NCBI GenBank assembly: GCA_010027845.1
Contig: RGUL01000014.1
Coordinates: forward strand, 1 to 40,408
Source: Gammaproteobacteria bacterium
GTDB taxonomy: Bacteria > Pseudomonadota > Gammaproteobacteria > Steroidobacterales > Steroidobacteraceae
Reading direction: 5' to 3'
DNA length: 40,408 nucleotides
Below are positions 3,095-40,408 of the stretch, piece after piece. The position numbers and the translations under genes are program-made. Every line of letters starts with the position of its first letter. Position 1 is the first letter of the stretch. The notes below the pieces were generated by a model, which made no database searches, was not told the origin of the DNA, and saw nothing but the letters and a program-made list of their open reading frames with translations.

Positions 3095-3124
3095 AAAAAG
3101 CGGGCCGTGAGGCCCGCTTTTTTT
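3093..3124. terminator. Bidirectional Rho-independent terminator
   Basis: A perfect seven-base GC stem, GCGGGCC (3100-3106) and GGCCCGC (3111-3117), with a GTGA loop is flanked by seven A on the left and seven T on the right. It can end both the rightward acs/DUF1838 transcript and the leftward TonB receptor transcript whose stop is at 3147. It overlaps the last two bases of the DUF1838 stop codon. Confidence 0.95.
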
Positions 3125-24633: not shown

Positions 24634-25728
24634 TTACGAGCTGCGCCGCGGTCGCGCGAGCAGCCACACGACGCCTAGCACCGCCGAGCAGCACGAACCG
24701 ACGAGCACGCCGAGTCGAATCGCCACGCTGTACTCGTCCGTCGGGAAGGCTAGCGAACCGATGAAGAGGCTCATCGTGAAGCCGATACCGGTCAAAATCG
24801 CCACGCCGTGCAAGTCGCGCCAGTCGGCGCCGGTCGGCAACTTCGCCCAACCGAGGCGCACCGCCAACCAGCACGCCGCGAGCACGCCGAATTGTTTGCC
24901 GAGCAGCAACCCGAGCACGATTCCGAGCGTGATGGGGTTCGCGAGAGTGTGCCAGCCGGCACCGTCGAGTGACGCACCCGCGTTCGCGAAGGCGAAGACG
25001 GGTAACACCAACCACGTCACGAACGGATGCAGTGTGGCTTCGAGTTTTCGTCGAGACTCCCCCTGCGGAATCAGCAGTCCGAGCACCACGCCCGCCAGCG
25101 TGGCATGCACTCCGGACTTCAACACCGATAGCCATAAAAAAAATCCGATGCAAAGATAGGGCGTCAGCCGACGTACGTCGGCGCGGCGCAGCAAAGTCAA
25201 CGCCACGAGGCAGATGGCCGCACTGGCGAGCGCCGCGGCAGATAACTGGCCCGTGAACAAAATGGCGATCAGCACGATCGCGCCGAGATCGTCGATCACC
25301 GCAAGTCCGAGCAAAAAAATTCGCAGACCGGGTGCGAGTCGACTGCGTACCAAAGCGAACACCCCGAGCGCGAACGCGATGTCGGTTGCGGTCGGGATCG
25401 CAGCGCCTTCCAGTAGCGTGGCGTCGGCGTCGGTCACCCAAAGAAAAACACCCGCCGGTGCGAGCATGCCGCCGATCGCGCCGGCGATCGGCAACGCAGC
25501 CCGACGTAAATCTGCCAGTTCACCCTCTTGGGTCTCGCGTGCGATCTCTAGACCGACGAGCAAAAAGAACACGGCCATCAAGCCGTCGTTGATCCAGTGC
25601 AGGATCGATTTCGAGGCGATCGTCAGCGCGAGTACGTTCGAATATTCGCCGGCCCACGGGCCGTTGGCAACGCTCATTGCGAGCGCTGCAGCGAGCAGCA
25701 GCGCGAGTCCGGGCCCGAGATCTTTCAT
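24634..25728 (-). CDS. nhaA: Na+/H+ antiporter NhaA
   Basis: Exports Na+ in exchange for protons across the inner membrane, contributing to salt and alkaline pH tolerance. The 364-residue product is slightly short for the family. It contains IPTATDIAFALGV with Asp116 and LGLAVIDDLGAIVL with the essential pair Asp146/Asp147, plus about 12 helices and the C-terminal GIGFTMSLFIGSLAF. The ATG at 25728 follows AGGAGA and overlaps the stop codon of the upstream nickel/cobalt transporter as ATGA, so the two are probably translationally coupled. Upstream in-frame codons lie inside the transporter gene and were excluded. Confidence 0.93.
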   Translation of the reverse strand: MKDLGPGLALLLAAALAMSVANGPWAGEYSNVLALTIASKSILHWINDGLMAVFFLLVGLEIARETQEGELADLRRAALPIAGAIGGMLAPAGVFLWVTDADATLLEGAAIPTATDIAFALGVFALVRSRLAPGLRIFLLGLAVIDDLGAIVLIAILFTGQLSAAALASAAICLVALTLLRRADVRRLTPYLCIGFFLWLSVLKSGVHATLAGVVLGLLIPQGESRRKLEATLHPFVTWLVLPVFAFANAGASLDGAGWHTLANPITLGIVLGLLLGKQFGVLAACWLAVRLGWAKLPTGADWRDLHGVAILTGIGFTMSLFIGSLAFPTDEYSVAIRLGVLVGSCCSAVLGVVWLLARPRRSS

Positions 25729-26528
25729 CGCTCTCCTAGCGCGAGCCGACGTCCGAGCAAATAGCTGAGCAAGATTACGGCGACCACGGCGATGCCGAAG
25801 GCGATTTCTTTGCCTTGCGACCATTGGTCGACCGCGGGTAGGACTAGTTTAGCGAACGCGAAGCCGGCTACCAGAAGGCTAACGCCACCGACCGCGAGAC
25901 TCATGACCCGAGAAGCGACCCGTGCGAGCTCGTCGGCGCGTGCGATCAGTCGCGAGATCCATAGGCCGTTGATGCCGTCGGTGACGAGCATGCCGATGGT
26001 GAACAAACCGCCGAGCATCAACGCGGGCGCGAGCCCGCCGAATTGTTGGGCCGTCAGCGAGAACAACGCCGCCTGGCTAATCGTGTCGAAGGAGAGCGCG
26101 AACAGGGCGCCGATCAATGCGACGAGCCAGGGCGAGCGCGCCTCGCCGAGGCCGGTCAACCAGCGGCTTTTGAGGCCGACCAGTGGCACGACCTCCTCCG
26201 GTGCGGTGGTCAATGCGGCGCGGACGTTCACCGCACCGAGCAAGGTCAGAAAAATCAGCGAGATCCAGGCGCCGCTCGTTTGTAGCCATTGCGGCGTTTC
26301 CCAGTGCGTCGTCACGAGGCTCACGCCGATCGCGATCAACATCACGACGGCACCGTGCCCCAAAGAAAAGAGCGCGCCGCAGTAGCGTGCGAACGGTTGC
26401 CGCAGCCGCGTGTTGAGACGCGTCAGCCCGTCGATGGTCGCGAGATGATCGGCGTCGAAGCCGTGCTTGAGGCCGAGCAGGAAGACGACCGTCGCAAGTC
26501 CGGTCCAGTCGGACGGCAAATTGTCCAT
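25725..26528 (-). CDS. NiCoT-family nickel/cobalt transporter
   Basis: A 267-residue inner-membrane transporter resembling the HoxN/NixA family. The signature H-x4-DH is present in LKHGFDADHL (His22, Asp27, His28), followed by LFSLGHGAVVMLI, the LSFDTISQA segment in place of LGFDTATE, and GMLVTDGING. About seven to eight helices are predicted. Several secondary motifs deviate from classical NiCoTs, so the metal could be Ni2+, Co2+ or another. It lies five bases after the alpha/beta hydrolase and overlaps nhaA by four bases, forming a three-gene leftward unit. No urease, hydrogenase or cobalamin gene is near. Confidence 0.8.
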   Translation of the reverse strand: MDNLPSDWTGLATVVFLLGLKHGFDADHLATIDGLTRLNTRLRQPFARYCGALFSLGHGAVVMLIAIGVSLVTTHWETPQWLQTSGAWISLIFLTLLGAVNVRAALTTAPEEVVPLVGLKSRWLTGLGEARSPWLVALIGALFALSFDTISQAALFSLTAQQFGGLAPALMLGGLFTIGMLVTDGINGLWISRLIARADELARVASRVMSLAVGGVSLLVAGFAFAKLVLPAVDQWSQGKEIAFGIAVVAVILLSYLLGRRLALGER

Positions 26529-26533
26529 GACGG

Positions 26534-27448
26534 CTAACGAGTGGGTAACGACTGCACGAGCTGCCGCAACGCAGCGTTGAACTCTTCGGGCGAGTCGATG
26601 AACAGTGCGTGCCCGGCGCCTTCGAAGGTCTGTACGCTCGCTTTCGGCATACGCGCCGCAACGGCGCGAATCACGTCGTTCGGCTGCGAAAGGTCGCGCG
26701 TGCCGACGTGAAAGAATACGGGCGCCGTGATCTTTGTGACCATATCGTCGTTGGTCAGGGCGAGCGCTGACATCGCGCGACGCGCGTACGGTGGCATCAT
26801 CTGATTGGTCGCGAACATGATGTCTTGCATGTCCTGTGGCGCTGGCTTGGCCGTCATCAACGACACGAACTGCTTGCCGTTGCGCATTTGCAGTTCGATG
26901 TCGGGCGGCAACGTCTTGTTCGCCTCGCGTTGCGCAGCAAGTTTTGCAAGCGCCGCCGGATCGGTGGGCGCGGGCGGCAGGCCGGCGTTAGAACCGATGA
27001 GCACCAATGCCGCCGCGACGTCGTTGCCGTAGTGGCGCACGAAATCGACGGTCACGTAACCGCCGAAACTCCAACCGACGATGACCGGGCGCACGAGTTT
27101 GCGCGCGGCGATCACTGCGGCGACGTCGTCCGCCCAAATCTTGGTGCCTGCATAGGCGGCTTCGGACCACGGCTTGCCGGAGCAACCGTGACCTCGCAGA
27201 TCGAAGGCGACGATTCGAAAATCTTTGGCGAGATCCGATTCGAATTGTCGCTTGAACACCGCGTAGCTTTGCGAAAAACCGTGGATGAAAAGCAACGGCC
27301 GACCTTGCGGGTTACCGGTTTCGTAGACGCAAAGCGGCGTTCCGTCCGACGAGGCGATGTAGTCGAACGAGGCGGCACGAGCCGAGGGCAGTGCGGATAG
27401 CAGTGCCGCCAGCCCGAGCGCGACGATGGAGAATGTGCGGCGGATCAT
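26534..27448 (-). CDS. Exported alpha/beta hydrolase
   Basis: A 304-residue periplasmic hydrolase with signal peptide MIRRTFSIVALGLAALLSAL (cleavage near ARA-AS). The fold motifs are the oxyanion HG in LLFIHGFSQS, nucleophile Ser127 in VGWSFGGY, Asp252 in GTRDLS and His280 in GAGHALF, so the catalytic triad is complete. The cap region (about 155-230) is Met/Pro-rich. The substrate, an ester, lactone or epoxide/halide type, cannot be inferred. It heads the leftward unit with the metal transporter and nhaA. Confidence 0.88.
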   Translation of the reverse strand: MIRRTFSIVALGLAALLSALPSARAASFDYIASSDGTPLCVYETGNPQGRPLLFIHGFSQSYAVFKRQFESDLAKDFRIVAFDLRGHGCSGKPWSEAAYAGTKIWADDVAAVIAARKLVRPVIVGWSFGGYVTVDFVRHYGNDVAAALVLIGSNAGLPPAPTDPAALAKLAAQREANKTLPPDIELQMRNGKQFVSLMTAKPAPQDMQDIMFATNQMMPPYARRAMSALALTNDDMVTKITAPVFFHVGTRDLSQPNDVIRAVAARMPKASVQTFEGAGHALFIDSPEEFNAALRQLVQSLPTR

Positions 27449-27555
27449 GGTCGGAGTTTACCGGATCGATGTCCGCGCAACGTACACAGAGCGGTCAACG
27501 CTTGCGCGGTGACGGGCCGACGGTTACAAACCCGGAACCTTCAGGAGAATAGCCG

Positions 27556-28458
27556 ATGCCCCACCGCAACTTGACCCGTCGTAGCGCAATCACCGGTACC
27601 GCCGCGCTCGGTTCGGCCGGCTTGCTGCCGACCGCCGAGGCCGCCACGACGCCACCCACGTTGCGGCTCGAGGATCCGCGCGAGCGTGCCCGCATCCTCG
27701 CGAAGATCAAAGGCTCCTGCGGCGAGGAGACGGTTTACACGTTTTGCCGCCTGCACCTGTATCTTTATTTGAACGACGGTAATCTCAAGCCGATGGTCAC
27801 GATGCAGAACCTCAACGCATCGACCTGGAAGCCGCTGCCGAACGGCAACTACCAAGGCACGGTGCGCGAAGTCGGCGCCTACACGGCGTTCGATACCGAT
27901 GAATTGATCGACCACTGGGTCAACCCCGTGACCGGCGAGAAGCGCGAGGTGTGGCAGTTCTTCGGCGGGCCGTTGTCGGTGGAGATCGGTCCGGACGGTA
28001 TCGCCACCGGCCCGGAAGCGACGCTCAAACCCAAAGAAATGCGTATCGACGTGGTCGGCGACAAGATTTTGGTGGCGAATCAGTCGGCGTTCTCGTTTCC
28101 GAACCCCTTCAAAGAAGACAAGTGGCCGAAAGAGGCTGGCGCGCCGATGTTCTTTTGGGATTCACACTATTTCTTCTCGGCACCGCTCGCCGAGGTCGCT
28201 AACCCTAAGGTGACGAGCGTGAGCTCGACCGTGCAATTTCAAAACCTAGTGAGCTTCCACCCGTGGCTCGGCATGGGTAAGACGCCCGGGCGAACCTATG
28301 GCAAGGCGCTCGGTTCGAAGTTGCGCTCGCTCGACGATCTGCCGCGCGGTGCCCGCGCCGCACTCGAGAAGCGCACGCCGGAAATCTTTGATCTGAAGTC
28401 ATGGACCAAGCCGCGCATCGATTTCGCAGAGTTTATGCAGCAGCGCGGTCCGAAGTAG
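27556..28458 (+). CDS. Tat-exported DUF1838 family protein (paralog 2)
   Basis: A 300-residue protein with a twin-arginine leader (LTRRSAITGTAALGSAG) and a mature domain resembling DUF1838. The middle carries NPVTGEKREVW and the C-terminal part the block FHPWLGMGKTPG, both shared with the other two paralogs. AGGAGA precedes the ATG at good distance. Its last 26 bases overlap the convergent GPH symporter gene. No catalytic motif is obvious. The family often occurs beside TonB receptors and hydrolases in proteobacteria, to my recollection, but its function is unknown. Confidence 0.78.
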   Translation: MPHRNLTRRSAITGTAALGSAGLLPTAEAATTPPTLRLEDPRERARILAKIKGSCGEETVYTFCRLHLYLYLNDGNLKPMVTMQNLNASTWKPLPNGNYQGTVREVGAYTAFDTDELIDHWVNPVTGEKREVWQFFGGPLSVEIGPDGIATGPEATLKPKEMRIDVVGDKILVANQSAFSFPNPFKEDKWPKEAGAPMFFWDSHYFFSAPLAEVANPKVTSVSSTVQFQNLVSFHPWLGMGKTPGRTYGKALGSKLRSLDDLPRGARAALEKRTPEIFDLKSWTKPRIDFAEFMQQRGPK

Positions 28459-29791
28459 TGCGACCGAGATCGTCGGGCAGGCGATAAAACCAAAGAAACA
28501 GTAATCCCAGTCCGTACGCGAGCGCGGGGATACCAACCAGGCTCAGTGTCACCGCAAGCTCGGCGGTCGTCGGCTGCTTGTCGAGCGGTAAATTTTTGTC
28601 GAAGTGCATGAGTTGTAGCAGTTCGCCGAGCAATAGCGGCCCTAACGAATAACCGAGCCGCTCGATGAAGACGTAGATCGAGGTGTACATGCCTTCGCGT
28701 CGTAAGCCGGTGCGCTCCCGATCGTAGTCGATGGTGTCTAGCCACATCGCCTGGCCGTAGAGCAGGATGGCCGAGGAGAAGATGCCGGCGAGGATGCCTC
28801 GCGCGATGAAAAATGCGTCCGAATCTTCAGGGGTCGCCAGCAACCAAGTCAACGTCGCAAAGATTTCGCCGACGATGCCGATGGCTAGACCCGTGCGTTT
28901 GGTGACGTAACGACCGATCCAGCGGAAGAAGGGGATGAAGGCCACCGTGCTCACGATGGTCGCCGAGGCGAGTTTCGACATCAAAGAAAAGTCGTGCTTC
29001 AGCACCATCACCACGAAAAACGCCGTGGTCGCACCCGAGGCCGACAGGGCGACGAACTGCAAAACTTTGATGCCGACCATCATCATGAACGGTCGATTGC
29101 CGAGCACCGCGCCGATTTGCTCTCGTAGCGGCACACGTTGCGAGGTTTCATCGATTTCCGTCGCCCGCGCACCGCCGGTGCCGAGAAAGGTCGCCATCAT
29201 GATCAAAAACACCCAGGCGCCGTAGATTGCACCCAGGGTTTGATATGAGTCGGGATTTTGACGGCCGAGTTTCTCGACGATCAGCGGTGCGACGGCGCTC
29301 CCGACCACCGAACCGATCATCATGAACACCGAGCGGTAGCCCATGATGCCGAGTCGTTGCATACGATCGGCGGTCATTTCCACCGGCATGGTGAGATACG
29401 GGACGTTGAAGATCGTAAAACCGAGCGAGTAGAACACCAGTGCGGCGAGTGCCACCGGCACCGGGTCGAATACGCCGATCAGATGATGTTGTGCGTAGAC
29501 GAGCGGCAACGACACGGCGCAAACGATCGCGCCTAGCAACAGGTACGGGCGGCGACGGCCCCACCGGGTCTTCGTGCGATCGGTGATCCAGCCCATGACC
29601 GGGTCGCTGAACGCGTCAAAAATACGCGCGGCGAACACTAGCAGGCCGGCGACACCCGGTTCGATTTTCATCACGGTGGTCAAATAAACGAGTACCAGCG
29701 CCGTGACGACGTTGAGGTAGGAGATGGTGCCCAGCGAGCCGAGGCCCCACGAGAAACGTACCCTAAACGGGATTTCGACCGATGCGTTCAT
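28433..29791 (-). CDS. GPH-family (glycoside-pentoside-hexuronide:cation) MFS symporter
   Basis: A 452-residue inner-membrane transporter with about 12 helices. The hallmark is the loop DAFSDPVMGWITDRTKTRWG followed by RRRPYLL, typical of GPH symporters (MelB, XynP and relatives), and the second half shows SMLD-like remnants. Substrates in the family are glycosides or uronides, but proteobacterial members also sit in aromatic and terpenoid loci, so the cargo is open. It lies between two DUF1838 genes: it overlaps one convergently and is divergent from the other with 47 bases between starts, which suggests they serve the same pathway. Confidence 0.88.
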   Translation of the reverse strand: MNASVEIPFRVRFSWGLGSLGTISYLNVVTALVLVYLTTVMKIEPGVAGLLVFAARIFDAFSDPVMGWITDRTKTRWGRRRPYLLLGAIVCAVSLPLVYAQHHLIGVFDPVPVALAALVFYSLGFTIFNVPYLTMPVEMTADRMQRLGIMGYRSVFMMIGSVVGSAVAPLIVEKLGRQNPDSYQTLGAIYGAWVFLIMMATFLGTGGARATEIDETSQRVPLREQIGAVLGNRPFMMMVGIKVLQFVALSASGATTAFFVVMVLKHDFSLMSKLASATIVSTVAFIPFFRWIGRYVTKRTGLAIGIVGEIFATLTWLLATPEDSDAFFIARGILAGIFSSAILLYGQAMWLDTIDYDRERTGLRREGMYTSIYVFIERLGYSLGPLLLGELLQLMHFDKNLPLDKQPTTAELAVTLSLVGIPALAYGLGLLFLWFYRLPDDLGRTTSDRAAA

Positions 29792-29838
29792 GTCGGCACG
29801 ATAACGGATAGCGATGTGTGCATGCTATAAAACCGGCT

Positions 29839-30684
29839 ATGAACCGAGCGAAATTCGATCCGTTGCGCCGCGGTGTATCGATGGCGTTGTTGGCTGCCGG
29901 CTTTGCGTCGATCACGGAGGCCGCCGTCGTCGACACCCGCAACGTCGACGGCGATCCTGCCGCATTGCTGCGCGATTTCATTCGTTTGCGTACGGCACCC
30001 GGCGGCGAGCCGGTGATGTGGCGCTATGCGGGCATTTTGGTCGGCAAGCCCGAGGGCGAGATGGCGCGACCGCTGACGCGTATCGAAGGCGTGAGTTACA
30101 CGCAAGCGACGCCGCGAACCGACGGCAGCATCGATTGGCAACTCGAAGAAGTCGGTTATTACTGCGGACTCGATGACGGCTTGCCCCTCGCGACGTTAAA
30201 CAACCCGTTCACGGGCGTCGAGGTGAAGGTCGCGCACTATCGCTCACCACAAAAACTGCGCTTCGTCGGTAATCGCATCGAACCCGGACAGCCGTTACCG
30301 CCCGGCATCGAATTTCGCGGTGAAATTCGTCGTCTGGCGACGGTGGCGGGGCGCGTTGCGCTCACCGAAGACTTGTACGTTCGCATGCCGGCGACGCCCG
30401 CGAGCGAAACGCGGCCCGCACGGCCGGTGCGTTTCGCTAATTCGATGGCGACTTTTCATGCCGCGCAGAGCGATCTTGCGCCGCAAAACTCGAGCAAGTG
30501 GACGGCCTGCGAATTTTCCTACACGACGCTCAATTCTTTCGCGCCGTGGCTCGGCATGGAGGCGACGCCGGGCGTACAAGACATGCGCATCACCGGCGCA
30601 AAATGCCGTATCGACGATCGCAGTGCGCTCGACGGGTGGCTGCGCGCCCGCATCGCGCAGGACCACCCGAATTTTTTACGTTGA
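29839..30684 (+). CDS. DUF1838-like exported protein (paralog 3)
   Basis: A 281-residue product with an N-terminal export signal (LRRGVSMALLAAGFASITEA) whose paired arginines make Tat export possible. The mature part has NPFTGVEVKVAHY in the middle and FAPWLGMEATPG near the C-terminus, matching the other two DUF1838-like proteins in order and spacing. Overall similarity looks lower than between textbook orthologs, so it is a diverged paralog. The ATG at 29839 is preferred; a GTG at 29818 would add seven residues. It ends 15 bases from the convergent coiled-coil gene. Confidence 0.7.
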   Translation: MNRAKFDPLRRGVSMALLAAGFASITEAAVVDTRNVDGDPAALLRDFIRLRTAPGGEPVMWRYAGILVGKPEGEMARPLTRIEGVSYTQATPRTDGSIDWQLEEVGYYCGLDDGLPLATLNNPFTGVEVKVAHYRSPQKLRFVGNRIEPGQPLPPGIEFRGEIRRLATVAGRVALTEDLYVRMPATPASETRPARPVRFANSMATFHAAQSDLAPQNSSKWTACEFSYTTLNSFAPWLGMEATPGVQDMRITGAKCRIDDRSALDGWLRARIAQDHPNFLR

Positions 30685-30699
30685 CTAGGCCGGAGTCGA

Positions 30700-31008
30700 T
30701 CAGCCGATATCGGCTTGTTTGGCGAGCGTTTCGAAGTCGTAGGTTTTGGCGTGCGGTGCGCCGGCGACGCGCGTTACGAGCGCGTTGCGCTCGCGTTCGA
30801 GTTCCTGCGCGAGCTCACCTTGTGGCACGAAATCGGCGAGCGCCTTGCGATCGACAATCTTTTTCTCTTCGAGCATGTGCTCGAGCACGGTGACGCGGTC
30901 GCGTAAGATCCAAAGTTCGGCAAGCAGTTCGGTGTTCATGCGCATCACGTCGTCCAATTCCATTTGGCCGAGATAGGGACGCGCTGGTCGTTCGACGGTG
31001 CGTGACAT
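30700..31008 (-). CDS. Small coiled-coil protein (hypothetical)
   Basis: A 102-residue soluble protein. Residues about 15-50 (DDVMRMNTELLAELWILRDR, then VTVLEHMLEEKK) and about 65-80 are strongly heptad-like and predict a helical coiled coil; the tail AKTYDFETLAKQAD is acidic. No family recognised. It starts nine bases after the methyltransferase stop on the same strand, so it is the third gene of a hydrolase-methyltransferase-coiled-coil operon. A role as small partner subunit of the methyltransferase is possible but is inference from position only. Confidence 0.75.
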   Translation of the reverse strand: MSRTVERPARPYLGQMELDDVMRMNTELLAELWILRDRVTVLEHMLEEKKIVDRKALADFVPQGELAQELERERNALVTRVAGAPHAKTYDFETLAKQADIG

Positions 31009-31017
31009 GATCGTTCC

Positions 31018-32106
31018 TCAGGCCGGTTTGCGACCGCGCGTGACCCAAGGATAGCCACGCTTCTCGAGCGCGTATTCTTCGACGTCGACGAAGCCGATCT
31101 CGCGCATCATCTTGGCGAGATTGATGCTGGCAGCAGCGCTGAAGTAGGGCTCGGCGCGATTGTCAGTATCCCAATCGAGCGCCACCGCTTGCAGTGGATT
31201 GACGGCGCGGAACGGCGGCGGATCGTTGATCACCATCTCGCCACCCGGTGTGAGGATGCGGAACATCTCGCGCAGCGTCTTTTCGGTGACCGCCGGCGGC
31301 ATCTCGTGATGCAACGCATAAGAAATCACGCCATCGACGCTGTTGTCGCGCTCGGCAACTTTGGTGCAGTCCTCTTGCCGGAAGGTGATGTTGAGACCGA
31401 GCATTTCGCTCATGAAATGTCCGCCCCGCAGCAAGGCGGGCGAAAGGTCACCGCCGATTAACTCGGCATCCGGAAATTGTTGGCGACACACACCGAGGGT
31501 GGTCGCGCCACCGCACCCGGGTTCGTAAATGCGTTTGAGATCGCGTTTGCGGAACTGTTTGACGACCTCCGCGCGTTGCGCGCGAATATTGCAGTCGACG
31601 TCGACCGCGGCGTAGCCACCGAGTGCGAACACGAACGGCCCGATGCCGGCCATGAACATCGGTTGAGTGAGGTCGTAACCGTCCCAACCGCCGGGCTCGA
31701 GGTGCCACTCGACGCCGTCGTACCACGATGGCATTTCGAGTTCGGGGTTCAATTGCAGGCGCGAAGTATCTTTGGGTTTGTTTTTGGCGAGGAACGCTTG
31801 CCACTCGGTGCGGCGTTGTTCGGTGGCCGGAATCGCGCGGATGTAGTTTTGTTCGCCGACCCAGCGTTGATAGAAGCGGTTATAGCGATAGGCTTTGGAG
31901 CGCTCGACGACGTCGCGGGCGCGGCCGAGTCGCTCGCGCCATACGCTTGGCCCCACATCGGAGTCGAATTCTTTGGCGAGGCTTTCCGCTTCGGGTTGCG
32001 CGGCGAAGTCGGCTTCAGCCTGATCACGCAGCGTGGAGCTCGAGTAATGTTGCAAAGAACCTAAGAACTGCAGGCCGGCGCGGCCGCGTTGTTTGAGGGT
32101 GATCAT
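31018..32106 (-). CDS. SAM-dependent class I methyltransferase with a long N-terminal extension
   Basis: A 362-residue cytoplasmic protein. The C-terminal half is a class I methyltransferase: SAM motif I IYEPGCGGATTLG at 193-205, an acidic motif II region LIGGDLSP, the GVISYALHHEMP motif and LTPGGEMVINDPPP, most like UbiE/COQ5-type small-molecule methyltransferases. Residues 1-185 form an extension rich in aromatic residues (for example KAYRYNRFYQRW, WYDGVEWHLEPGGWDGYD) that I do not recognise. The start overlaps the upstream hydrolase stop as ATGA, so translation is coupled. A hydrophobic small-molecule acceptor is likely; identity unknown. Confidence 0.85.
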   Translation of the reverse strand: MITLKQRGRAGLQFLGSLQHYSSSTLRDQAEADFAAQPEAESLAKEFDSDVGPSVWRERLGRARDVVERSKAYRYNRFYQRWVGEQNYIRAIPATEQRRTEWQAFLAKNKPKDTSRLQLNPELEMPSWYDGVEWHLEPGGWDGYDLTQPMFMAGIGPFVFALGGYAAVDVDCNIRAQRAEVVKQFRKRDLKRIYEPGCGGATTLGVCRQQFPDAELIGGDLSPALLRGGHFMSEMLGLNITFRQEDCTKVAERDNSVDGVISYALHHEMPPAVTEKTLREMFRILTPGGEMVINDPPPFRAVNPLQAVALDWDTDNRAEPYFSAAASINLAKMMREIGFVDVEEYALEKRGYPWVTRGRKPA

Positions 32107-32984
32107 GGTTTCTTGCCTCCGTTATCGAGTTCCAGCCAAAAGTTTCGCAGCGCGTCGTTGAGTTGCGCCGGTGCCTCGAGCGGCAACAGCCTGCCCGCGG
32201 AGGCGAGTTCGATCACGCGACCGCTAGGGAACGTCGCAGCGATTTTTCGCGCCGTCGCGGGCGTGAGCACGGTGTCGCCCTGGCCGACGGGAATCATCAC
32301 CGGCATGGTCAGTTTGGGTGGTAGGTCGGCGGTGCTCGGCGTGTCGCTCGTCGTGAGGAACGCGACCAGCGTTTCGTAGGGCGTTTGACCGAGCATGGTT
32401 TTGTAGCGCGCGCGTGCGATGAGCGGCGCTTCCGGCGCGACGATGTATTCGTTGAAGCGCCGGAACAGCGTGTCTTTGCCTTCGATGACGACGGTGCGGG
32501 CGTTCTCGGCGCGATAGCGGATGCCTGCGGCATCGAGATTGGCGCTGCCGAGCACGGTACTGATGAGCGTCAACGAGCGGCAGCGCTGCGGCTGGCGTGC
32601 GCAGACGATCGCCGCGATGTTGCCGCCGGCACTGAGGCCGACGAAGTCTGCCTCGCGAACTTTAGTGGCATCGAGAAACGCAACGAGTTCGTCGGCGTAG
32701 CGTTGCATGTCGATCTTCGTTTGCGTCGACGGTGACGAGTAGCCGTGCCCGGATAGATCCGGCGCGAGACAGCGACGCGTATCGCAAACGCCGTCGAGTT
32801 GATCGAGCCACAAGCGCGAGTCGAGCAGGAGTGCGTGTACGAATACGACCGGCCGACCTTGGCCGCGCTCGCGATACGCGATTTGTGCGCGCTCAAGTTC
32901 GACGCTGCGCTGCGCGATCGGCGCGGCGCCGGCGAGCGTCGCTGCGCCGTAACCGAGGAGCAGCAGTGCGAGGTAGCGCTTCAT
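32103..32984 (-). CDS. Exported alpha/beta hydrolase lacking the usual catalytic histidine
   Basis: A 293-residue protein with signal peptide MKRYLALLLLGYGAATLAGA and an alpha/beta-hydrolase fold. Nucleophile Ser118 in VGLSAGGN and an Asp237 in PVGQGDTV are in place, but the usual GAGH block reads SAGRLLPLEAP, with Arg265 (codon AGG) where the catalytic His belongs. The oxyanion HG is also changed to HA (VFVHALLLDS). It may be inactive, a binding protein, or use another residue. The ATG at 32984 fits the signal peptide; an ATG at 33005 with GGGGG close by is the alternative. It leads the operon with the methyltransferase (4-base overlap). Confidence 0.82.
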   Translation of the reverse strand: MKRYLALLLLGYGAATLAGAAPIAQRSVELERAQIAYRERGQGRPVVFVHALLLDSRLWLDQLDGVCDTRRCLAPDLSGHGYSSPSTQTKIDMQRYADELVAFLDATKVREADFVGLSAGGNIAAIVCARQPQRCRSLTLISTVLGSANLDAAGIRYRAENARTVVIEGKDTLFRRFNEYIVAPEAPLIARARYKTMLGQTPYETLVAFLTTSDTPSTADLPPKLTMPVMIPVGQGDTVLTPATARKIAATFPSGRVIELASAGRLLPLEAPAQLNDALRNFWLELDNGGKKP

Positions 32985-33068
32985 ATCGTGATCGTAGCGC
33001 GGCATCACCCCCTCGTGGCACCCGTAATCGACCGTACCGCGAGCGTGCTCACCCATAGGCCTCATTTA

Positions 33069-33078
33069 TGGCATGCCA
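33069..33078. promoter_or_regulatory. Palindrome TGGCATGCCA upstream of TonB receptor 2
   Basis: A perfect ten-base palindrome lies between the divergent hydrolase and TonB receptor 2 genes, about 90 bases before the receptor ATG. It could be a dimeric-repressor site. Flanking bases do not extend the symmetry. Confidence 0.2.
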
Positions 33079-33170
33079 AGTAAAAGGTATTGCGAGCAAC
33101 GCAGGTAGCAGACGAACATCGGTAGATTCGCAACGAAGCGATCGATTCCGACACTTTAAAGGGGGTTCTC

Positions 33171-35669
33171 ATGGCTCGAAGTTCATCATCCCGCGTACTG
33201 CCGTTGGTCGTGGCAGCGGTCGCGGCAGCGGTAGCTGGCATCGCGAGCGCGCAAGTGCAACTCGAGGAAGTGACGGTCACCGCGCGTAAGCGCGCCGAAT
33301 CGTTGCAGGAGATTCCGATGTCGGTGACGGCGTTCACCGCCGAATCGATCGAAGCGCGCGGCATCCGCAACGTCCAAGACGTCATCAAGTACACCCCGGG
33401 GTTGAGTTTCGATAAAGGCTTCGCGCCGCAAGACACGCGCCCCAACATCCGTGGCTTGCCGACCACGCGCGGTCGTCCGCCGGTGGGCATGCTGCTCGAT
33501 GGCATCGACATTTCCTCCGAGTCGATCGCAACGGCAGGCGGCAGCAGCCTCATGAACTTGAAGTTGGTCGACGTCGAGCGCATCGAAGTCGTCAAAGGTC
33601 CGCAGAGCGCGCTGTATGGCCGCGTCGCGTTCGGTGGCGCCATCAACTACATCTCTAAGAAACCGCAGTTCGACAAGGTTGACGGTACCGCGTCACTCGA
33701 CGTCGCGACCGACGGACTCTACGAAGCGCGCGGCGCAGTGAATCTGCCCGTGTCGGATTCGGCTGCATGGCGCTTGAACGGCATCTACAGCAAGTTCGAC
33801 GGCTTCTTCAAAAATGAAATCTCGGGCGCGAAGTTGGGCGGCTGGGACACCAAAGGTGTTGCGGCGGCCTTGCGCTTCAAGCCGGCCGATGCTGCGGACT
33901 TCACGCTGCGTCTTTCTTATTCGGACGATAAGGCAGAGCCGCGTCCCTCGTTCTACTATGGTCAGGCTGTCGCTGGTCGCAACACCACGCTCAACTTGCC
34001 GGCGAACGCGGTCGGTTTGCGCTTGGGCGTCAATCAATCGGGCGCGCCGCTGCCGGCTTCGATTCGCTATCCGCAACTCGGCGAAGCGCAGAACGGCGGC
34101 AAAGTTTATTTGAGCGTCGATCCGCTTACGGGCAAAGATTACGAAGGCGGTAAACTCAAGACGACGATCGCGAGCCTGGTCGGTGACGTCGATCTCGGCT
34201 TCGCCAAACTTTCTTCCTGGACCGGCTATACCGATGCGACCGCCTTGAGCCGCGCCGACGCCGACTTTTACGCAGCGCCTGCGGCAGCGGTGAAAGTGCC
34301 GGTGGTGGGTAATTACGAGCCGCTGTCCGCCGCGCAAGTGACCGACATCGCAACCAAAGCCAAACAGCTCAGCCAAGAAATTCGTATCGGCCGACTCGAA
34401 GGCGAGGGCTTCCGTTGGGCGGTCGGTGCGCTTTATTGGAAAGAAGATTATTCCAGCGTCAACGCCTCGCTCTTCATCAGCGGTTTCTCGCGCAATGCGC
34501 CGATTCCGGCGGCGACGTTCCCAGCGGGATGGTCGGCGGCAGCGGAAATCGTCGCGCGTGGCACTATCCCGGGTGACCTCAACTACCGCAACACTCGGCA
34601 CACGTCGGGTTACCTGATCGCCGAATACGACATCACACCACAACTGCAGGCATCGGGCGAAATTCGCTACGGTCGCGAGAAGTTCGAGTACCTGTTCGGT
34701 CGCGCCGTCAGCCCCAACGTCTCGGCGACGGGCGCAGTGCTGCCGGCGACGCTGCCGGGCGTGACCTTCTCACCGAGCTCCTCGACCAACTATTCGGCGC
34801 CGAAGTTCACCTTGAACTACAAACCCGAAAAGGACTTCTTGCTCTACGGCTCGGTATCGAAGGGTGTGAAGCCGGCGGGCTTCCTGAACGTGGGCGTAGT
34901 GCTTGACGTCAACGATGCGAAGTACAAGCCCGAAATTCTTTGGAACTACGAGGGCGGGTTCAAAACTTCTTGGATGAACGATCGGTTGCGCTTGAACGGC
35001 GCGTACTTCCACATGAAGTACACGGACCGCATCAACCAATTGTTGGTCCCGGATTCGCGCAGCCCGCAGGGCACCTCGACGCTGGTCGTCAACACGGGTG
35101 AAGCGAAGGTCGATGGTTTCGAGCTCGAGATGGCGGCCGGCTTGACGGAGCACGTCACGTTGTCCGGCGCGTACACCTACCTCGATCCGAAGTTCGTCGA
35201 CTCGCGGGTACCTTCGGTGGCGCCGCTGACGATCGCGGGTTCTGGTAACTGCACCGTCGGCACGGTGGGCCCGCAGACGGTTTGCTTCACCGATACGAAC
35301 GGCAAGCAACTCGAGCAATCCGCGAAGAACGCACTCGTCGCGACGCTCGCCTACGACACCGAGTTGTCGGACGGTTGGCGCATGAACGGCGAGTTGTCGG
35401 CGCAATATCGCAGCAAGCGTTTCATTTCGCCCGATAACCGTATCTGGTTGCCGTCGATCACCAACGTCGATGCGCAAGTTCGTTTCAACAAAGACAATTA
35501 CGCGGTCACCGTGTATGTCACGAACTTGCTCGATCAAGACAAGGTGACCTCGGCGCAGAGCTACGGTGATCCGTTCATCGCGTTCCCGGTATCACCGCCG
35601 GTGCTGGCGTATACGACCTACCCGTCGGATCCGCGGCAGTTCGGTCTGCGTCTGAACTACAAGTTCTGA
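33171..35669 (+). CDS. TonB-dependent outer-membrane receptor 2
   Basis: An 832-residue outer-membrane transporter. It has a signal peptide (MARSSSSRVLPLVVAAVAAA, cleavage after SA-Q), plug-domain opening LEEVTVTARKRAESLQEIPM, IEVVKGPQSALYGRVAFGG and AINYISKKPQ, and a barrel ending in FGLRLNYKF. A cysteine pair (NCTVGTVGPQTVCF) marks a loop close to the position of a similar pair in TonB receptor 1; the two receptors are distant paralogs. The start has AAAGGGGG about nine bases upstream. The next gene begins at the base after its stop, and a strong terminator lies 44 bases further on. Neighbouring hydrolases suggest an ester- or lactone-bearing hydrophobic ligand rather than a siderophore, which is inference. 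Confidence 0.92.
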   Translation: MARSSSSRVLPLVVAAVAAAVAGIASAQVQLEEVTVTARKRAESLQEIPMSVTAFTAESIEARGIRNVQDVIKYTPGLSFDKGFAPQDTRPNIRGLPTTRGRPPVGMLLDGIDISSESIATAGGSSLMNLKLVDVERIEVVKGPQSALYGRVAFGGAINYISKKPQFDKVDGTASLDVATDGLYEARGAVNLPVSDSAAWRLNGIYSKFDGFFKNEISGAKLGGWDTKGVAAALRFKPADAADFTLRLSYSDDKAEPRPSFYYGQAVAGRNTTLNLPANAVGLRLGVNQSGAPLPASIRYPQLGEAQNGGKVYLSVDPLTGKDYEGGKLKTTIASLVGDVDLGFAKLSSWTGYTDATALSRADADFYAAPAAAVKVPVVGNYEPLSAAQVTDIATKAKQLSQEIRIGRLEGEGFRWAVGALYWKEDYSSVNASLFISGFSRNAPIPAATFPAGWSAAAEIVARGTIPGDLNYRNTRHTSGYLIAEYDITPQLQASGEIRYGREKFEYLFGRAVSPNVSATGAVLPATLPGVTFSPSSSTNYSAPKFTLNYKPEKDFLLYGSVSKGVKPAGFLNVGVVLDVNDAKYKPEILWNYEGGFKTSWMNDRLRLNGAYFHMKYTDRINQLLVPDSRSPQGTSTLVVNTGEAKVDGFELEMAAGLTEHVTLSGAYTYLDPKFVDSRVPSVAPLTIAGSGNCTVGTVGPQTVCFTDTNGKQLEQSAKNALVATLAYDTELSDGWRMNGELSAQYRSKRFISPDNRIWLPSITNVDAQVRFNKDNYAVTVYVTNLLDQDKVTSAQSYGDPFIAFPVSPPVLAYTTYPSDPRQFGLRLNYKF

Positions 35670-36665
35670 GTGATCGGCTTGCGTCCTCGATCGGGGGTTT
35701 TGAGAGGACGCGACAGGCTGGCGGGGTTACTCGCCAGCCTGTTTTTTTTGCTGCCGGCGTTCGGTGCGGCGCAAGATGCGCGGCTTTTCGACGACGCGTA
35801 TCTTGAACGAAAGTATGCGACCGCGCCGTCGAAGTTCGTCACCGTGGAAGGTGTTCGGTTCCACGTGCGCGACGAGGGCAAAGGGCCGGTACTGCTATTG
35901 CTCAACGGTCATCTCGGCAGTTTGCACATGTGGGATGCTTGGGTGCGCATCTTGTCGCCACAGTTGCGCATCGTGCGCATCGACTACGCGCCGTATGGCT
36001 TGAGTGGTCCGGATCCCAGCGGTGATTATTCGACCGAGCATGCCGTGCGACTCGTGCACGCACTCGTGCAGCGTCTGCGACTCGAAAAATTTAGTATCGG
36101 CGGCACGTCGAACGGGGCGCTGGTCGCGCTGTTCTATGCGATCGAGCATCCGGAGCGCGTCGAGCGCGTGGTCGTCTCGACCTTGCCGGCAGGTCGTCCG
36201 CCGCCGCGGAAGCCTAGCGATGCGATGCGCGCCGCGGCGGTTGAGGTCAAAGCGCAAGCCCCGTTTCAGCCGCGTGCATTTTGGGATGCGTTCTTGCACG
36301 ACATTATGGCCAACGATGCGGTGATCGACGACGTACTAGTCGATCGCTATTTCGAATTGAACAATCGTCGCGGTGCAAAAGCCTGGGTCGATGCCTACAT
36401 CGACACCCAATATCGTCTGTGGGACACCTTGGATGTCAAAGAAAAATTCGGGCGCTTGCGACGTCCGATTTTGCTGCAGTGGGGCGCCGACGGCGTCGTG
36501 CTGCCGGAGCAGATCGGTCACGATGTCGCCGATTTGCTGCGCGCTGCGCCGGTGACGCTGAAGCAATATCGAAACGCCGGGCACTTGCCGATGATCGAGC
36601 AGCCCGAAGCGACGGCCCGCGACGCGCTAGCGTTCTTGCGGGGCACGACGCTCGTTTCTGACTGA
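35670..36665 (+). CDS. Exported alpha/beta hydrolase abutting TonB receptor 2
   Basis: A 331-residue hydrolase if it starts at the GTG immediately after the receptor's TGA, or 321 if it starts at the TTG at 35700, which has GGGGG just upstream. Either way a signal peptide follows (RLAGLLASLFFLLPAFG, then AAQ). The domain has LLNGHLGSL in the oxyanion region, nucleophile Ser147 in GGTSNGA, a likely acidic residue in WGADGVVLP and His in NAGHLPMIEQP, so the triad is complete. The signal-peptide codons contain a perfect intrinsic terminator hairpin, so expression past the receptor should depend on read-through or translation. It ends 12 bases from the convergent aldo/keto reductase. Confidence 0.85.
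   Translation: MIGLRPRSGVLRGRDRLAGLLASLFFLLPAFGAAQDARLFDDAYLERKYATAPSKFVTVEGVRFHVRDEGKGPVLLLLNGHLGSLHMWDAWVRILSPQLRIVRIDYAPYGLSGPDPSGDYSTEHAVRLVHALVQRLRLEKFSIGGTSNGALVALFYAIEHPERVERVVVSTLPAGRPPPRKPSDAMRAAAVEVKAQAPFQPRAFWDAFLHDIMANDAVIDDVLVDRYFELNNRRGAKAWVDAYIDTQYRLWDTLDVKEKFGRLRRPILLQWGADGVVLPEQIGHDVADLLRAAPVTLKQYRNAGHLPMIEQPEATARDALAFLRGTTLVSD
35713..35749 (+). terminator. Rho-independent terminator inside a signal-peptide coding region
   Basis: ACAGGCTGGCG (35713-35723) and CGCCAGCCTGT (35732-35742) form a perfect 11-base stem with an eight-base loop, followed by a run of T ending at 35749. This is a textbook intrinsic terminator 44 bases after the TonB receptor 2 stop. It lies inside the reading frame of the following hydrolase, within the codons for the hydrophobic core of its signal peptide. 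Confidence 0.88.
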
Positions 36666-36682
36666 GTCGATCGAGTCTCAGT
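36661..36682. terminator. Weak hairpin between convergent genes
   Basis: ACTGAG (36661-36666) and CTCAGT (36677-36682) form a six-base stem around a loop containing TCGATCGA, between the hydrolase and aldo/keto reductase stops. There is no T-run, so it is at best a weak or Rho-assisted end. Confidence 0.2.
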
Positions 36683-37640
36683 TCGCGGAGGCCTGATTCA
36701 GCGCGGCGACTTCTTCGGTCGTGAGTTCTAGCGTCGCGCCCGACAATATTTCGCGCAATTGCGTGACGTTCGTCGCGCTGGCGATCGGGGCCGTGACGCC
36801 TCGCGCGATGAGCCAAGCGATCGCCACACACGCAGGCGTCGTGGCGTGCGCACGGGAGACTAGATCGAGCGCGGCGAGGATGCGTGAGCCGCGTGCATCG
36901 AGCATAGCCCCCATGCGCGCACCGCGCGGACTTTTGCCGAGATCTGCGGTGGTGCGATATTTGCCGGTCAAGAACCCCGAAGCGAGCGCGAAGTACGGAA
37001 TCACCCCGAGCGCTTCACGGGCGCACAACGGCGCCAACGCGGTTTCGAATTCTTTGCGCTGCACGAGGTTGTAGTGTGGTTGCAGACACTCGTAACGCGC
37101 GAGACCGTTTCCGGCACTGGTCGCAAGCGCCGCTTCGAGGCGCGACGCCGTGAAATTCGAGGCGCCGAGCACACGCACCTTGCCCGCACGCACCAAGTCG
37201 TCGAAGGCGCGGGCCGTTTCCTCGAGTGGTGTGTCGGGATCATCGCGGTGGGCTTGATAAAGGTCGATGTAATCGGTGCGTAAACGCTGCAACGAGCGAT
37301 CGACGGCGCGGTGGATATAGTCCCGCGAGAGACCGTTGTCGCCGGGTCCCATCTCTAGACCGACTTTCGTCGCCAGTACGATGCGGGCACGCATCGCGGA
37401 GCCGCGCGCGGCGAACCAGTTGCCGATGATGGTTTCGGATTCGCCGCCGACATTACCCGGGATGAAGCGCGAGTAGGCGTCCGCCGTGTCGATGAAATTG
37501 AAGCCGGCATCGACGAACGCATCGAGCAGTTCGAACGAGGTGCGTTCGTCGGCAGTCCAACCGAAGACGTTACCGCCGAAAGCGAACGGCGCGACGCGCA
37601 GCGTCGAGCGACCGATGGGGCGTGAGGCGAGCGTCGTCAT
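36678..37640 (-). CDS. Aldo/keto reductase
   Basis: A 320-residue cytoplasmic NAD(P)H-dependent oxidoreductase with the (beta/alpha)8 AKR fold. The tetrad is visible: Asp51 and Tyr56 in FIDTADAYS, Lys92 in LATKVG and His131 in YQAHRDD. The cofactor-binding end is IASATNVTQLREI. It resembles the YajO/Tas-like branch acting on small carbonyls. Its start overlaps the stop of the VOC gene as ATGA, so the pair is coupled. No signal peptide, in contrast to the upstream VOC protein. Confidence 0.9.
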   Translation of the reverse strand: MTTLASRPIGRSTLRVAPFAFGGNVFGWTADERTSFELLDAFVDAGFNFIDTADAYSRFIPGNVGGESETIIGNWFAARGSAMRARIVLATKVGLEMGPGDNGLSRDYIHRAVDRSLQRLRTDYIDLYQAHRDDPDTPLEETARAFDDLVRAGKVRVLGASNFTASRLEAALATSAGNGLARYECLQPHYNLVQRKEFETALAPLCAREALGVIPYFALASGFLTGKYRTTADLGKSPRGARMGAMLDARGSRILAALDLVSRAHATTPACVAIAWLIARGVTAPIASATNVTQLREILSGATLELTTEEVAALNQASAN

Positions 37641-38206
37641 GGTGAGGGTGCCTGTAGCAATTCGACGAGATAGCCGTCGGGGTCGTGGACATGAAAAACT
37701 TTGCCGCGCAGCGGCCGACCGTCGTCGGTCGTGCGTCGAGAGAGGTAAGTTTGCGGCGGCTCCAAAATTTTCGCTCCCGCTTGCGCCAAACGGGCGTGGA
37801 TGGCATCGGCATCGGCGACATCAAATACCAACACGACGTCGCCGCGACCGACACGTGAGGGGTCGATACGCGCCTCGGGCGGAGTCGGAGCGCCGAATTC
37901 GACCAAACCGATCTTGCCACCCGCGCCATTTGCACTCTGCAAAATCACGAGCCGCGTGCGAGTGGACGGTGCGTTGAGCGGAAAGGGGTTTTCTTTGGGA
38001 TTGCGCGGTGTCGTCGCGTCGGATTCGATCGTAAAACCGAGTAGGCGATAGAAATCGATCGAGGCGGAGGCGTCGCGCACGATGAGCGCGGCGCGCAGTA
38101 GCGTCGGATCAGCAGCGATCGCGACGTCTGCGGTGGTGAGCGCGAGTAAGGCGATTGCGATCCACAGGCCGCGAAGACGATTAACTACCTGATGGTTGGC
38201 TTGCAC
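37637..38206 (-). CDS. Exported VOC (glyoxalase/bleomycin-resistance fold) protein
   Basis: A 189-residue protein from a GTG at 38206, chosen because GAGGA lies eight bases upstream; an ATG at 38269 would add 21 residues. A signal peptide follows (RLRGLWIAIALLALTTADVA, then IAA), so it is probably periplasmic, unusual for VOC proteins. Two beta-alpha-beta-beta-beta modules are visible: LRAALIVRDASASIDFYRLL with GF, and VVLVFDVADADAIHARLAQA. It ends with HVHDPDGYLVELLQ, where Glu is the usual metal ligand. The first metal-ligand position is not His. The substrate is unknown. It is coupled to the aldo/keto reductase by a 4-base overlap. Confidence 0.82.
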   Translation of the reverse strand: MQANHQVVNRLRGLWIAIALLALTTADVAIAADPTLLRAALIVRDASASIDFYRLLGFTIESDATTPRNPKENPFPLNAPSTRTRLVILQSANGAGGKIGLVEFGAPTPPEARIDPSRVGRGDVVLVFDVADADAIHARLAQAGAKILEPPQTYLSRRTTDDGRPLRGKVFHVHDPDGYLVELLQAPSP

Positions 38207-38261
38207 TGCTGATGTCCTCTGGGTGCATCGTAACGATGCGTGCTGGGCGAGAATAACTCCG

Positions 38262-38945
38262 ATGACCATCGATTTTGCAATGTGGTATCCGATCGTTCGC
38301 GCCTTGCACGTGCTCGTGATGGGCTATTGGCTCGGTAGCGAGCTCGTGATCAACGCGCTCACGCATTACGTCGCCCGCACCACGACGCTGTCGGGCGTCG
38401 AGCGTATGCGCTTGTGGGATTTTTTGCTCGACGTCGATCAGCACGTGCGTAACGCGATGATCATGTCGGTGCCGCTCGGTTTCACGCTCGCCTCGATGCT
38501 CGGCCTCGTCACGATCCTAGGCGTCTGGATGTGGGCGCTCTGGATCGTATCGGCGGCGTGGTTCTGGTTCATGTGGCTGGTGCATTGGCGCCGCAAAGCG
38601 CCCGAGGGTGCGGCGCTTGCCCGCTGGGACTGGCGCTTCCGCTACCCGCTGATCGCATTTTTCTTCGGCTCGGGCGTGTGGTCCTTGGCGACCGGGTGGC
38701 CGTATCCGACCGTTTGGCTTGCGCTGAAGGTGACGTTGTTCGCCGGCGCGATGGTGTGCGGTATTTTCGTGCGCTATTGCATCCGCGAAGCTTATAAATC
38801 AGCCATTCCGGCGATCGCGGCCGATCGCGCGACCGATGCGGACAACGCCGAATTTCGCCTGTGGATGGTGCGCGGCACCTGGGCGTTGGTGGTGTTGTGG
38901 GTCATTCTGTTCACGATCGGTGCGCTCGGGGCGCTCAAGCCCTAA
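38262..38945 (+). CDS. Six-helix inner-membrane protein, family unknown
   Basis: A 227-residue polytopic protein. Hydrophobic segments are visible around residues 8-30 (RALHVLVMGYWLGSELVI), 65-87, 88-107 (Trp-rich WALWIVSAAWFWFMWLVHW), 125-145, 150-172 and 205-225. Histidines in the first helix (ALHVL) and before the second (DVDQHVRNAM) could bind heme or metal, and the opening helix recalls CopD-like proteins, but I cannot assign a family. The ATG at 38262 is divergent from the VOC gene with 55 bases between starts. The following lipoprotein gene begins nine bases after its stop. Confidence 0.78.
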   Translation: MTIDFAMWYPIVRALHVLVMGYWLGSELVINALTHYVARTTTLSGVERMRLWDFLLDVDQHVRNAMIMSVPLGFTLASMLGLVTILGVWMWALWIVSAAWFWFMWLVHWRRKAPEGAALARWDWRFRYPLIAFFFGSGVWSLATGWPYPTVWLALKVTLFAGAMVCGIFVRYCIREAYKSAIPAIAADRATDADNAEFRLWMVRGTWALVVLWVILFTIGALGALKP

Positions 38946-38954
38946 AATGGGCGG

Positions 38955-40408
38955 ATGACCTGCCGGAACCTGTTGCGCCTTATTCCCCGACTCGGGGTTC
39001 TGCTGACGACGCTCGCGCTGGCGAGTTGCTTGGGAGGGCCGGGGCCGGAGGCGCCGACCATCACCGATCAACCGAAAGACAAAGCGGTGTTCGTCTCGCA
39101 AACGGCGAATTTCGACATCGGTGTGACCGGCAAGCCGCCGTTCACCTTTCAATGGTATCGCAACGGGGTCGTGATCGACGGTGCGACCGCCGCGACCTAC
39201 ACCACCCCGAACGTGACTGCCGCCGACAGTGGCGCAAAGTTTTCGGTGAAGATCACGACGCCCTCGGGTTCGGTGACGAGCTCTCAGGCGGTGCTCACGG
39301 TCAAAGATAAACCGACCGTCACCACCGACCCCGTTTCGACCAGCGTCGCCGTCGGCGCTTCGGTGAGTTTGACGGTCGCAGGTTCGGGCGAGAGTCTCAC
39401 CTATCAATGGCTGCGCGACGAGTTGCCGATTACGGGCGCGACCTCAGCGACCTACACGTTTACCGCGGTCGCAGCCGACGACGGTGCGGTGTTTCGTGCC
39501 TACGTCGTGAACCCGGGTGGTTATGCGGTCAGTGCGCCAGCGACCGTCACCGTGAACGACGTGCCCGCGTTCGCGATCCAACCGTATACGCAAACCGTGG
39601 GTAACGGTGATCCGGTGGCGTTCACCGTGCTCGCGACCGGTGGCAACTTGAGCTATCAATGGCAACGCAACGGCGTGAACATCGCCGGTGCGACGAGTCG
39701 CACTTATGGCATCGCCGCTGCGACCGCCGCCGATAACGGCGCGAGTTTCAGCGTGAAAATCACCAACGCACAAGGCTCGGCGACGAGCGCGGTGGCCAAT
39801 TTGTCGGTGGTGGCCGCCACGGTGCGCGCCGTCGCGACGCCGGTCGCGGAGGTCGCGCTCTCGAAGAATGCGACCGCCGCGTACAACTTCACCTACGTGC
39901 GAAAATCGGACGGTAGCATCGCGAGCTTCGGCTACAACAGCGAAGGTGAGCGCGGCGATGGCACCGTCGCCGCTGCGAGCGATACAGCGGGTACCGTGAC
40001 TCTGCCGGTCGGTCGCAAGGCGCGACAAGTCGATGCCGGCAGCACTCACGGCATCGCTTTGCTCGACAACGGCGACGTGTATTCTTGGGGTCTCAACGAC
40101 GGCGGCCAACTCGGTCTCGGTGACACGGTCACTCGGTCGACACCGGCGAAGATTTCTTTGCCGCGGCCGGCGGTCTCGGTGGCGGCCGGGCGCAGTTTTT
40201 CGGTCGCCGTACTCAACGACGGCAGCGTCTACACTTTTGGCGCCAACGACATCGGGCAGCTCGGTAACGGCGGCCGCGATGTCTCCACGACTCCCGTGCT
40301 GGTCTCCGGCGTGAACAACGTCGTCGCCGTCGCGGCTGGCAATGCGCACGTGTTGGCGTTGCGTGGTGACGGCAGCGTTTGGGCGTGGGGCGCGAACGCT
40401 TCCGGTCA
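38955..40408 (+). CDS. Lipoprotein with three Ig-like domains and RCC1 repeats (3' end outside window)
   Basis: The frame is open from the ATG at 38955 to the window edge, at least 484 residues. A lipoprotein signal ends in the lipobox LASC (Cys25) followed by Leu, which predicts the outer membrane. Three Ig-like domains follow, each about 85 residues, each with YQW or FQW and a GAT-x-x-TY block (Trp codons near 39152, 39409 and 39660). From about residue 315 RCC1/ATS1 beta-propeller repeats appear (GDVYSWGLNDGGQLGLGD, GSVYTFGANDIGQLGNGG, GSVWAWGANASG), spaced about 53 residues. A surface binding or adhesion role is likely. Only a weak ribosome-binding site is seen. The number of RCC1 blades is unknown because the gene is cut. 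Confidence 0.85.
   Translation, partial: MTCRNLLRLIPRLGVLLTTLALASCLGGPGPEAPTITDQPKDKAVFVSQTANFDIGVTGKPPFTFQWYRNGVVIDGATAATYTTPNVTAADSGAKFSVKITTPSGSVTSSQAVLTVKDKPTVTTDPVSTSVAVGASVSLTVAGSGESLTYQWLRDELPITGATSATYTFTAVAADDGAVFRAYVVNPGGYAVSAPATVTVNDVPAFAIQPYTQTVGNGDPVAFTVLATGGNLSYQWQRNGVNIAGATSRTYGIAAATAADNGASFSVKITNAQGSATSAVANLSVVAATVRAVATPVAEVALSKNATAAYNFTYVRKSDGSIASFGYNSEGERGDGTVAAASDTAGTVTLPVGRKARQVDAGSTHGIALLDNGDVYSWGLNDGGQLGLGDTVTRSTPAKISLPRPAVSVAAGRSFSVAVLNDGSVYTFGANDIGQLGNGGRDVSTTPVLVSGVNNVVAVAAGNAHVLALRGDGSVWAWGANASG

Follow-up and report, generated by a model that had tools for sequence, protein, structure and literature searches.

Leaky intercistronic terminators occur in operons, where a partial terminator located between genes lowers the expression of the downstream gene. 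An intrinsic terminator can also be located within a coding region, as in arfA of E. coli, and pyrL of the same bacterium encodes a dispensable leader peptide upstream of its operon, with its own stop codon after the terminator. The pyrBI attenuator (pyrL) resembles the locus described here in that an intrinsic terminator lies inside an open reading frame (ORF) and could in principle be blocked by a close ribosome; the available excerpts of PMC4824070 and PMC5021804 report that at pyrBI tight coupling suppresses the terminator and that a pause restores the coupling. Experiments with brfA of B. subtilis demonstrated that an intrinsic terminator in the coding region results in non-stop mRNA (excerpts of PMC6881298). 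Nearly the same geometry as at our locus was built in the synthetic operon W48, where the terminator tR2 was placed 30 bp into the second ORF; according to the excerpts of PMC4824070, most of the efficiency was kept and non-stop messages were formed.

The locus differs from all of these systems. In contrast to pyrBI, the ORF encodes the enzyme itself, the terminator would belong to the preceding gene and its codons are those of a presumed signal peptide; no separate leader peptide with its own stop codon was found, and the ORF continues as a hydrolase. In brfA and arfA the terminator is located near the 3' end and the product is a tmRNA-responsive rescue factor, whereas here the terminator lies in the first codons of a putative exported enzyme. 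Leaky intercistronic terminators sit between genes, whereas this one is found inside the presumed translated N-terminus of the next gene. W48 is engineered and has no signal peptide, and the excerpts of PMC4824070 do not address natural recurrence. Our searches of the open-licence PMC literature gave no precedent for a signal-peptide-embedded attenuator.

The hairpin behind the receptor gene

The stretch of DNA analysed (the window, 40,408 nucleotides) is G000:C36 of a Steroidobacteraceae MAG with an assembly of 2.6 Mb, 91% complete, and a G+C content of 0.617 in sampled stretches. The features of the locus are as follows.

33171..35669, + strand: TonB-dependent receptor gene (ORF), matching PF00593 (E 7.1e-37) and PF07715 (E 2.3e-24), with its stop codon TGA at 35667-35669
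35670..36665, + strand: alpha/beta hydrolase ORF, matching PF00561 (E 2.6e-19), with the frame open across the hairpin
GTG 35670, TTG 35679 (best supported) and TTG 35700, + strand: candidate hydrolase starts, from start alignment with the orthologous locus L009
35682..35711, + strand: predicted upstream hairpin GCGTCCTC/GAGGACGC, its loop containing a G-run
35712..35749, + strand: intrinsic terminator with a 14-pair stem, a 4-nt loop and eight T, from sequence, folds, scans and orthologous hairpins
35679..35774, + strand: presumed signal-peptide coding region with the terminator inside, comprising a basic n-region, the hydrophobic core LAGLLASLFFLLPAFG and small residues at the likely cleavage site

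As the sequence-only reading had stated, the receptor TGA is followed at once by an in-frame GTG. The perfect 11-base stem with a T-run that it had placed inside the hydrolase ORF was confirmed as well: the hairpin at 35712-35743, whose stem begins 42 nt past the TGA, contains 11 Watson-Crick pairs (ACAGGCTGGCG/CGCCAGCCTGT), extends to 14 pairs once G.U is counted and has the G+C-rich stem directly followed by a T-run (eight T at 35742-35749) of an intrinsic terminator. Among the 28 terminator-like sites in 25000-40408, compared with a mean of 16.8 in shuffles, it has the longest stem. A separate scan of the whole window gave seven such sites, and the hairpin alone had the lowest energy of these (-27.7 kcal/mol). 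In 100 first-order Markov simulations, each of a single strand as long as the window, no sequence attained this value (best -26.4 kcal/mol). The 111-nt stretch with the hairpin showed a folding z of -4.6, and none of 200 shuffles folded as well. The stem occurs once in the window, and the hairpin is far beyond chance. A strong bidirectional terminator, with T-runs on both strands, was also observed at 3095-3122, after the window's other receptor (L074 stop side).

Start codons, signal-peptide features and in-frame labels were judged by eye or with simple scripts. TTG 35679 aligns with a GTG of L009 that is the only in-frame ATG, GTG or TTG before the hairpin in that locus, and both codons are located 33 nt from the stem; from this alignment TTG 35679 appears to be the best-supported start of the hydrolase. 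GTG 35670, beside the receptor TGA, was not conserved among the orthologues. A start at TTG 35748, after the hairpin, would leave the window protein without a signal peptide.

A message ended at the T-run has a candidate in-frame start and no stop, there being no in-frame stop from 35670 to 35749; this is the arrangement in which an ORF-internal terminator gives non-stop mRNA. Because they would carry an in-frame start without a stop, terminated messages should be non-stop and feed ribosome rescue. tmRNA was detected above the family cut-off in 12 of the 24 genus genomes. The window's own assembly, which is 91% complete, gave no tmRNA; a match below the cut-off was rejected as a tRNA.

Orthologous loci and constraint on the hairpin

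A close orthologue of the hydrolase (E<=1e-48) was found in 7 of the 24 genus genomes, the window's own counted; the named records that carry one are MAGs under the labels Steroidobacteraceae, Nevskiaceae, Gammaproteobacteria or proteobacterium. The receptor is located directly upstream in six of the seven (L001, L009, L010, L011, L012 and L038; in L011 the receptor lacks its end, through deletion or assembly), and all six receptor-hydrolase loci have a T-tailed hairpin in frame within the signal-peptide region. When read through the hairpin, each of the six orthologues shows, by eye, basic residues and a hydrophobic core, with small residues where cleavage would be likely. Hydropathy maxima were 2.5-3.4 in the four hydrolase loci passing the scan, and far relatives of the hydrolase also have a hydrophobic N-terminus. 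The in-frame overlap and these features, judged by eye, support the earlier claim that terminator and signal peptide share bases: the terminator and the presumed signal peptide are built from the same stretch, in which the G+C-rich stem and T-run, read in frame, would encode a basic or small stretch followed by Phe/Leu.

The hairpins are of type A in L001, L009 and L038, reading RLAxL..SLFF, and of type B in L010, L011 and L012, reading GWVTxVTxPFLF; the type B stem sequence bears no resemblance to that of type A. The start codon, the leader, the gap between receptor stop and stem (41-64 nt in the five measurable orthologues, 42 nt in the window and 43 nt in L012) and the frame relation between receptor and hydrolase all differ between orthologues. 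Receptor and hydrolase share one frame in the window and are in different frames in L009, L010, L012 and L038, the other orthologues with a visible receptor stop. Because these frames differ, the path of a ribosome 'continuing' through the TGA is not conserved, and stop-codon read-through was rejected as a conserved way into the hydrolase.

The sequence-only reading had proposed an alignment of orthologous loci to see whether the hairpin is kept with compensatory changes, and the presence of the hairpin at all six receptor loci, with some paired changes, agrees with that expectation. Stem pairs were compared by layout outward from the loop, with the arms entered by hand. All 14 pairs of type A are kept in the three sequences; both partners differ at pairs 3, 6 and 14, and one partner differs at pairs 1, 2 and 13. 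At pair 6, where G-C is replaced by A-U, neither codon changes its amino acid (AGG/AGA, AGC/AGT). The type B stem of L012 has U-A in place of U.G at pair 7 (Arg to His) and a broken pair 2, and its loop is GCAA in place of GCGA, both of them GNRA loops. Four-fold sites in the 69-nt type B block were identical at 15/15, 12/12 and 12/12 positions in three genome pairs; the corresponding counts for the mature gene were 83/153, 71/150 and 72/149 (Fisher p 2e-4 to 4e-4, with non-independent comparisons). For total nucleotide identity, one pair alone showed a significant excess of the block over the mature gene (p 0.03, 0.25, 0.31 for the three pairs), because several of the differences change amino acids. 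The differences in the type B T-run are all silent (TTT/TTC). The silent-site pattern of the block, its G-rich leader included, points to a constraint at the RNA or DNA level. Termination at the type B loci may be weak, since their T-run is broken up by other bases (TTCCTTTTC in L012).

The G-rich leader that separates receptor stop and terminator (GGGTCTGCCAGGGGGGAGRCCACGAG) hardly differs among the three species with L010, L011 and L012. A G-run is also present in the leaders of the window and L009, there within the loop of a predicted hairpin. An upstream helix comparable to that of the window was predicted in L009; predicted folds differ in the type B loci, where a short GGTCT/AGRCC helix was seen by eye only. 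The upstream hairpin at 35682..35711 is possibly a pause or leader structure. For type B, inspection by eye also raised a CsrA-type site and an internal GTG start, neither of which was retained.

In the seventh orthologue (G012) the hydrolase lies behind other genes with, by eye, no receptor directly upstream, and no terminator of <= -9 kcal/mol was detected in the interval that extends 400 nt upstream and 250 nt downstream of the hydrolase start. Two Rhodospirillaceae orthologues (53% identity) likewise had no terminator around the hydrolase start; in the 3 kb upstream of them, with one frame searched, an OprB porin was found at L044 and no family at L046. The genes placed directly before the hydrolase orthologue in G012 (L043/L013) are, by eye, relatives of the window's genes for a 320-aa hydrolase, a 362-aa and a 102-aa protein (30700-33065, minus strand), and no receptor lies between. 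This gene order points to a gain or loss of the receptor inside the cluster.

Receptor ends and a second receptor/enzyme pair

The window's own genome gave 32 PF00593 matches, from which 30 receptor loci were fetched, 28 of them with the stop in the locus. A terminator of <= -20 kcal/mol was located within 50 nt of the stop in 14 of these 28, and receptor genes in this genome often end in strong terminators. This count is one of the reasons for reading the hairpin as the receptor's own terminator.

A second receptor/exported-enzyme pair was found in the same genome (L067/L111; G000:C163:4585-7421). Here the receptor stop overlaps the ATG of a PF03372 (phosphatase-family) protein as TGATG, and GAGGGGCAGCTTCGGCTGCCCCTCTTTTTTTT lies inside the signal-peptide region of that protein. 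Of 396 genomes of the order, 28 have relatives at E<=1e-50, and 18 of these belong to the genus; the upstream receptor was identified by family search in some genomes and elsewhere from a receptor-like C-terminus. A strong terminator precedes the enzyme domain in 16 of the 18 genus loci and was not found there at L121 and L123. By starts called by eye or script, it is in frame as signal peptide in nine loci (L111-L114, L116, L124 and L126-L128), and in several of these a TTG inside the T-run or directly behind it is a possible alternative start. It lies ahead of the start in six others (L115, L117, L119, L120, L122 and L125), and the start call of L118 is ambiguous relative to the terminator. 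Outside the genus, no terminator was found in the 8 loci examined of 11. On a tree of 27 proteins the in-frame state required five changes, at least three of them on well-supported branches. At this pair the apparent overlap comes and goes and the predicted receptor terminator stays.

Across a sample of 117 distinct receptor ends from five genomes, a terminator lay within 110 nt of the stop in 47. The frame-picking script overlooks some downstream genes (e.g. after L062), and only its 10 INFRAME labels were used. Five clear in-frame cases were retained after inspection (L065, L207, L067, L196 and L205), all from the hydrolase and PF03372 pairs. The two weak ones, L182 (G016:C39, a DctQ-like gene) and L206 (G006:C23, a short, soluble-looking protein), have weaker hairpins with poor T-tracts in the N-terminus, behind receptors. 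The label at L078 was rejected as an ordinary later ATG, and those at L201 and L223 were rejected for lack of a credible gene.

Competing explanations and significance

On evidence drawn from one genus and from few, mutually dependent orthologues, we favour as fairly probable that the hairpin is the receptor's own terminator, absorbed into the hydrolase N-terminus, and that the hydrolase is expressed by read-through, which would set the ratio of the two products. A hydrolase start upstream of the receptor terminator would cause the terminator bases to be translated in frame, the stem supplying Arg/Gly/Ala/Leu codons close to where the basic region ends and the T-run supplying Phe/Leu codons of the hydrophobic core. 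Most transcripts would stop at the hairpin and serve the receptor; the hydrolase would be made from the read-through fraction, from a weak start just past the receptor stop, giving a high receptor:enzyme ratio. The constrained G-rich leader of type B, which a plain terminator does not account for, counts against this reading, as do the broken pair 2 of L012, the interrupted type B T-run and the total identity of the type B block. The excerpts of PMC4824070 report that in E. coli the terminator tR2 was maximal once it was >27 nt from the upstream stop, where the ribosome no longer represses it, that translation of an ORF lowers the efficiency of a terminator placed 30 bp into it by only about 10%, and that non-stop messages approximately halved expression of the upstream gene. 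In the window the stem is 42 nt past the receptor stop and 33 nt into the ORF from TTG 35679. Because this gap and early-ORF position resemble the E. coli cases that kept most of their activity in those excerpts, the first expectation would be that termination is efficient and that the hydrolase is expressed by read-through. The same values (a 42-nt gap, greater than 27 nt, and an early-ORF effect of about 10% in the excerpts of PMC4824070) leave the claim that translation of the receptor end prevents termination without support in the form in which it was made. The related proposal that the hairpin sets the receptor-to-hydrolase ratio would hold if the hairpin terminates; its ribosome-dependent part found no support as stated, since gap, start, leader and frame vary.

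A translation-coupled attenuator would require that the ribosome ending the receptor re-initiates, trails RNA polymerase into the hairpin and blocks it, with the hydrolase sensing translation or coupling as at pyrBI. Such control would fit the frame open across the hairpin in six of six loci, a hydrolase start that adjoins or closely follows the receptor stop, the upstream hairpin in L001 and L009 as a possible pause site, the constrained type B leader and the pyrBI precedent (excerpts of PMC4824070 and PMC5021804). However, little ribosome effect is predicted from the 42-nt gap and early-ORF position (excerpts of PMC4824070); start codon, gap and frame relation are unconserved; the PF03372 pair is labile, with the hairpin preceded by the start in some species and followed by it in the rest of those with a clear start call; and the predicted orthologue folds contain no conserved alternative antiterminator. 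We consider the attenuator unlikely, and leave it some weight because the upstream hairpin could be a pyrBI-like pause.

Less probable still is a plain intergenic terminator, with the hydrolase starting after the hairpin at TTG 35748 and not exported, and the upstream frame fortuitous. Six PF03372 loci do start after their terminator, and the upstream starts of the hydrolase are weak (GTG/TTG), but the protein started at 35748 would have no signal peptide, whereas the six orthologues look exported when read through the hairpin and far relatives share the hydrophobic N-terminus. The frame is also open in all six, with every type B T-run difference silent. In a G+C-rich genome some T-tailed hairpins are expected by chance, and the hairpin could be a coincidence or a palindromic repeat without termination function. 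We regard this as very improbable given the simulated energies, the single occurrence of the stem in the window, the hairpin at all six receptor-hydrolase loci and the type B block, which in the three of six searched genomes that hold it is found only at the hydrolase locus. An extra type B match in G010 was an overlapping contig end (124 bp, 100%), and a repeat element was rejected.

The overlap at the hydrolase, together with that at the PF03372 pair, provides a concrete and repeated case of one DNA stretch that seems to be under selection for two roles, RNA terminator and protein code. We propose, tentatively and with more doubt than confidence, that the genus repeatedly co-opts receptor terminators as ready-made signal peptides and that the overlap is kept since a single element connects the levels of receptor and exported enzyme with ribosome rescue. 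Orthologues that start ahead of the terminator can readily be compared with those that start behind it. The receptor genes are predicted to supply non-stop messages, and the loci suggest that a signal peptide could grow from an existing regulatory element.
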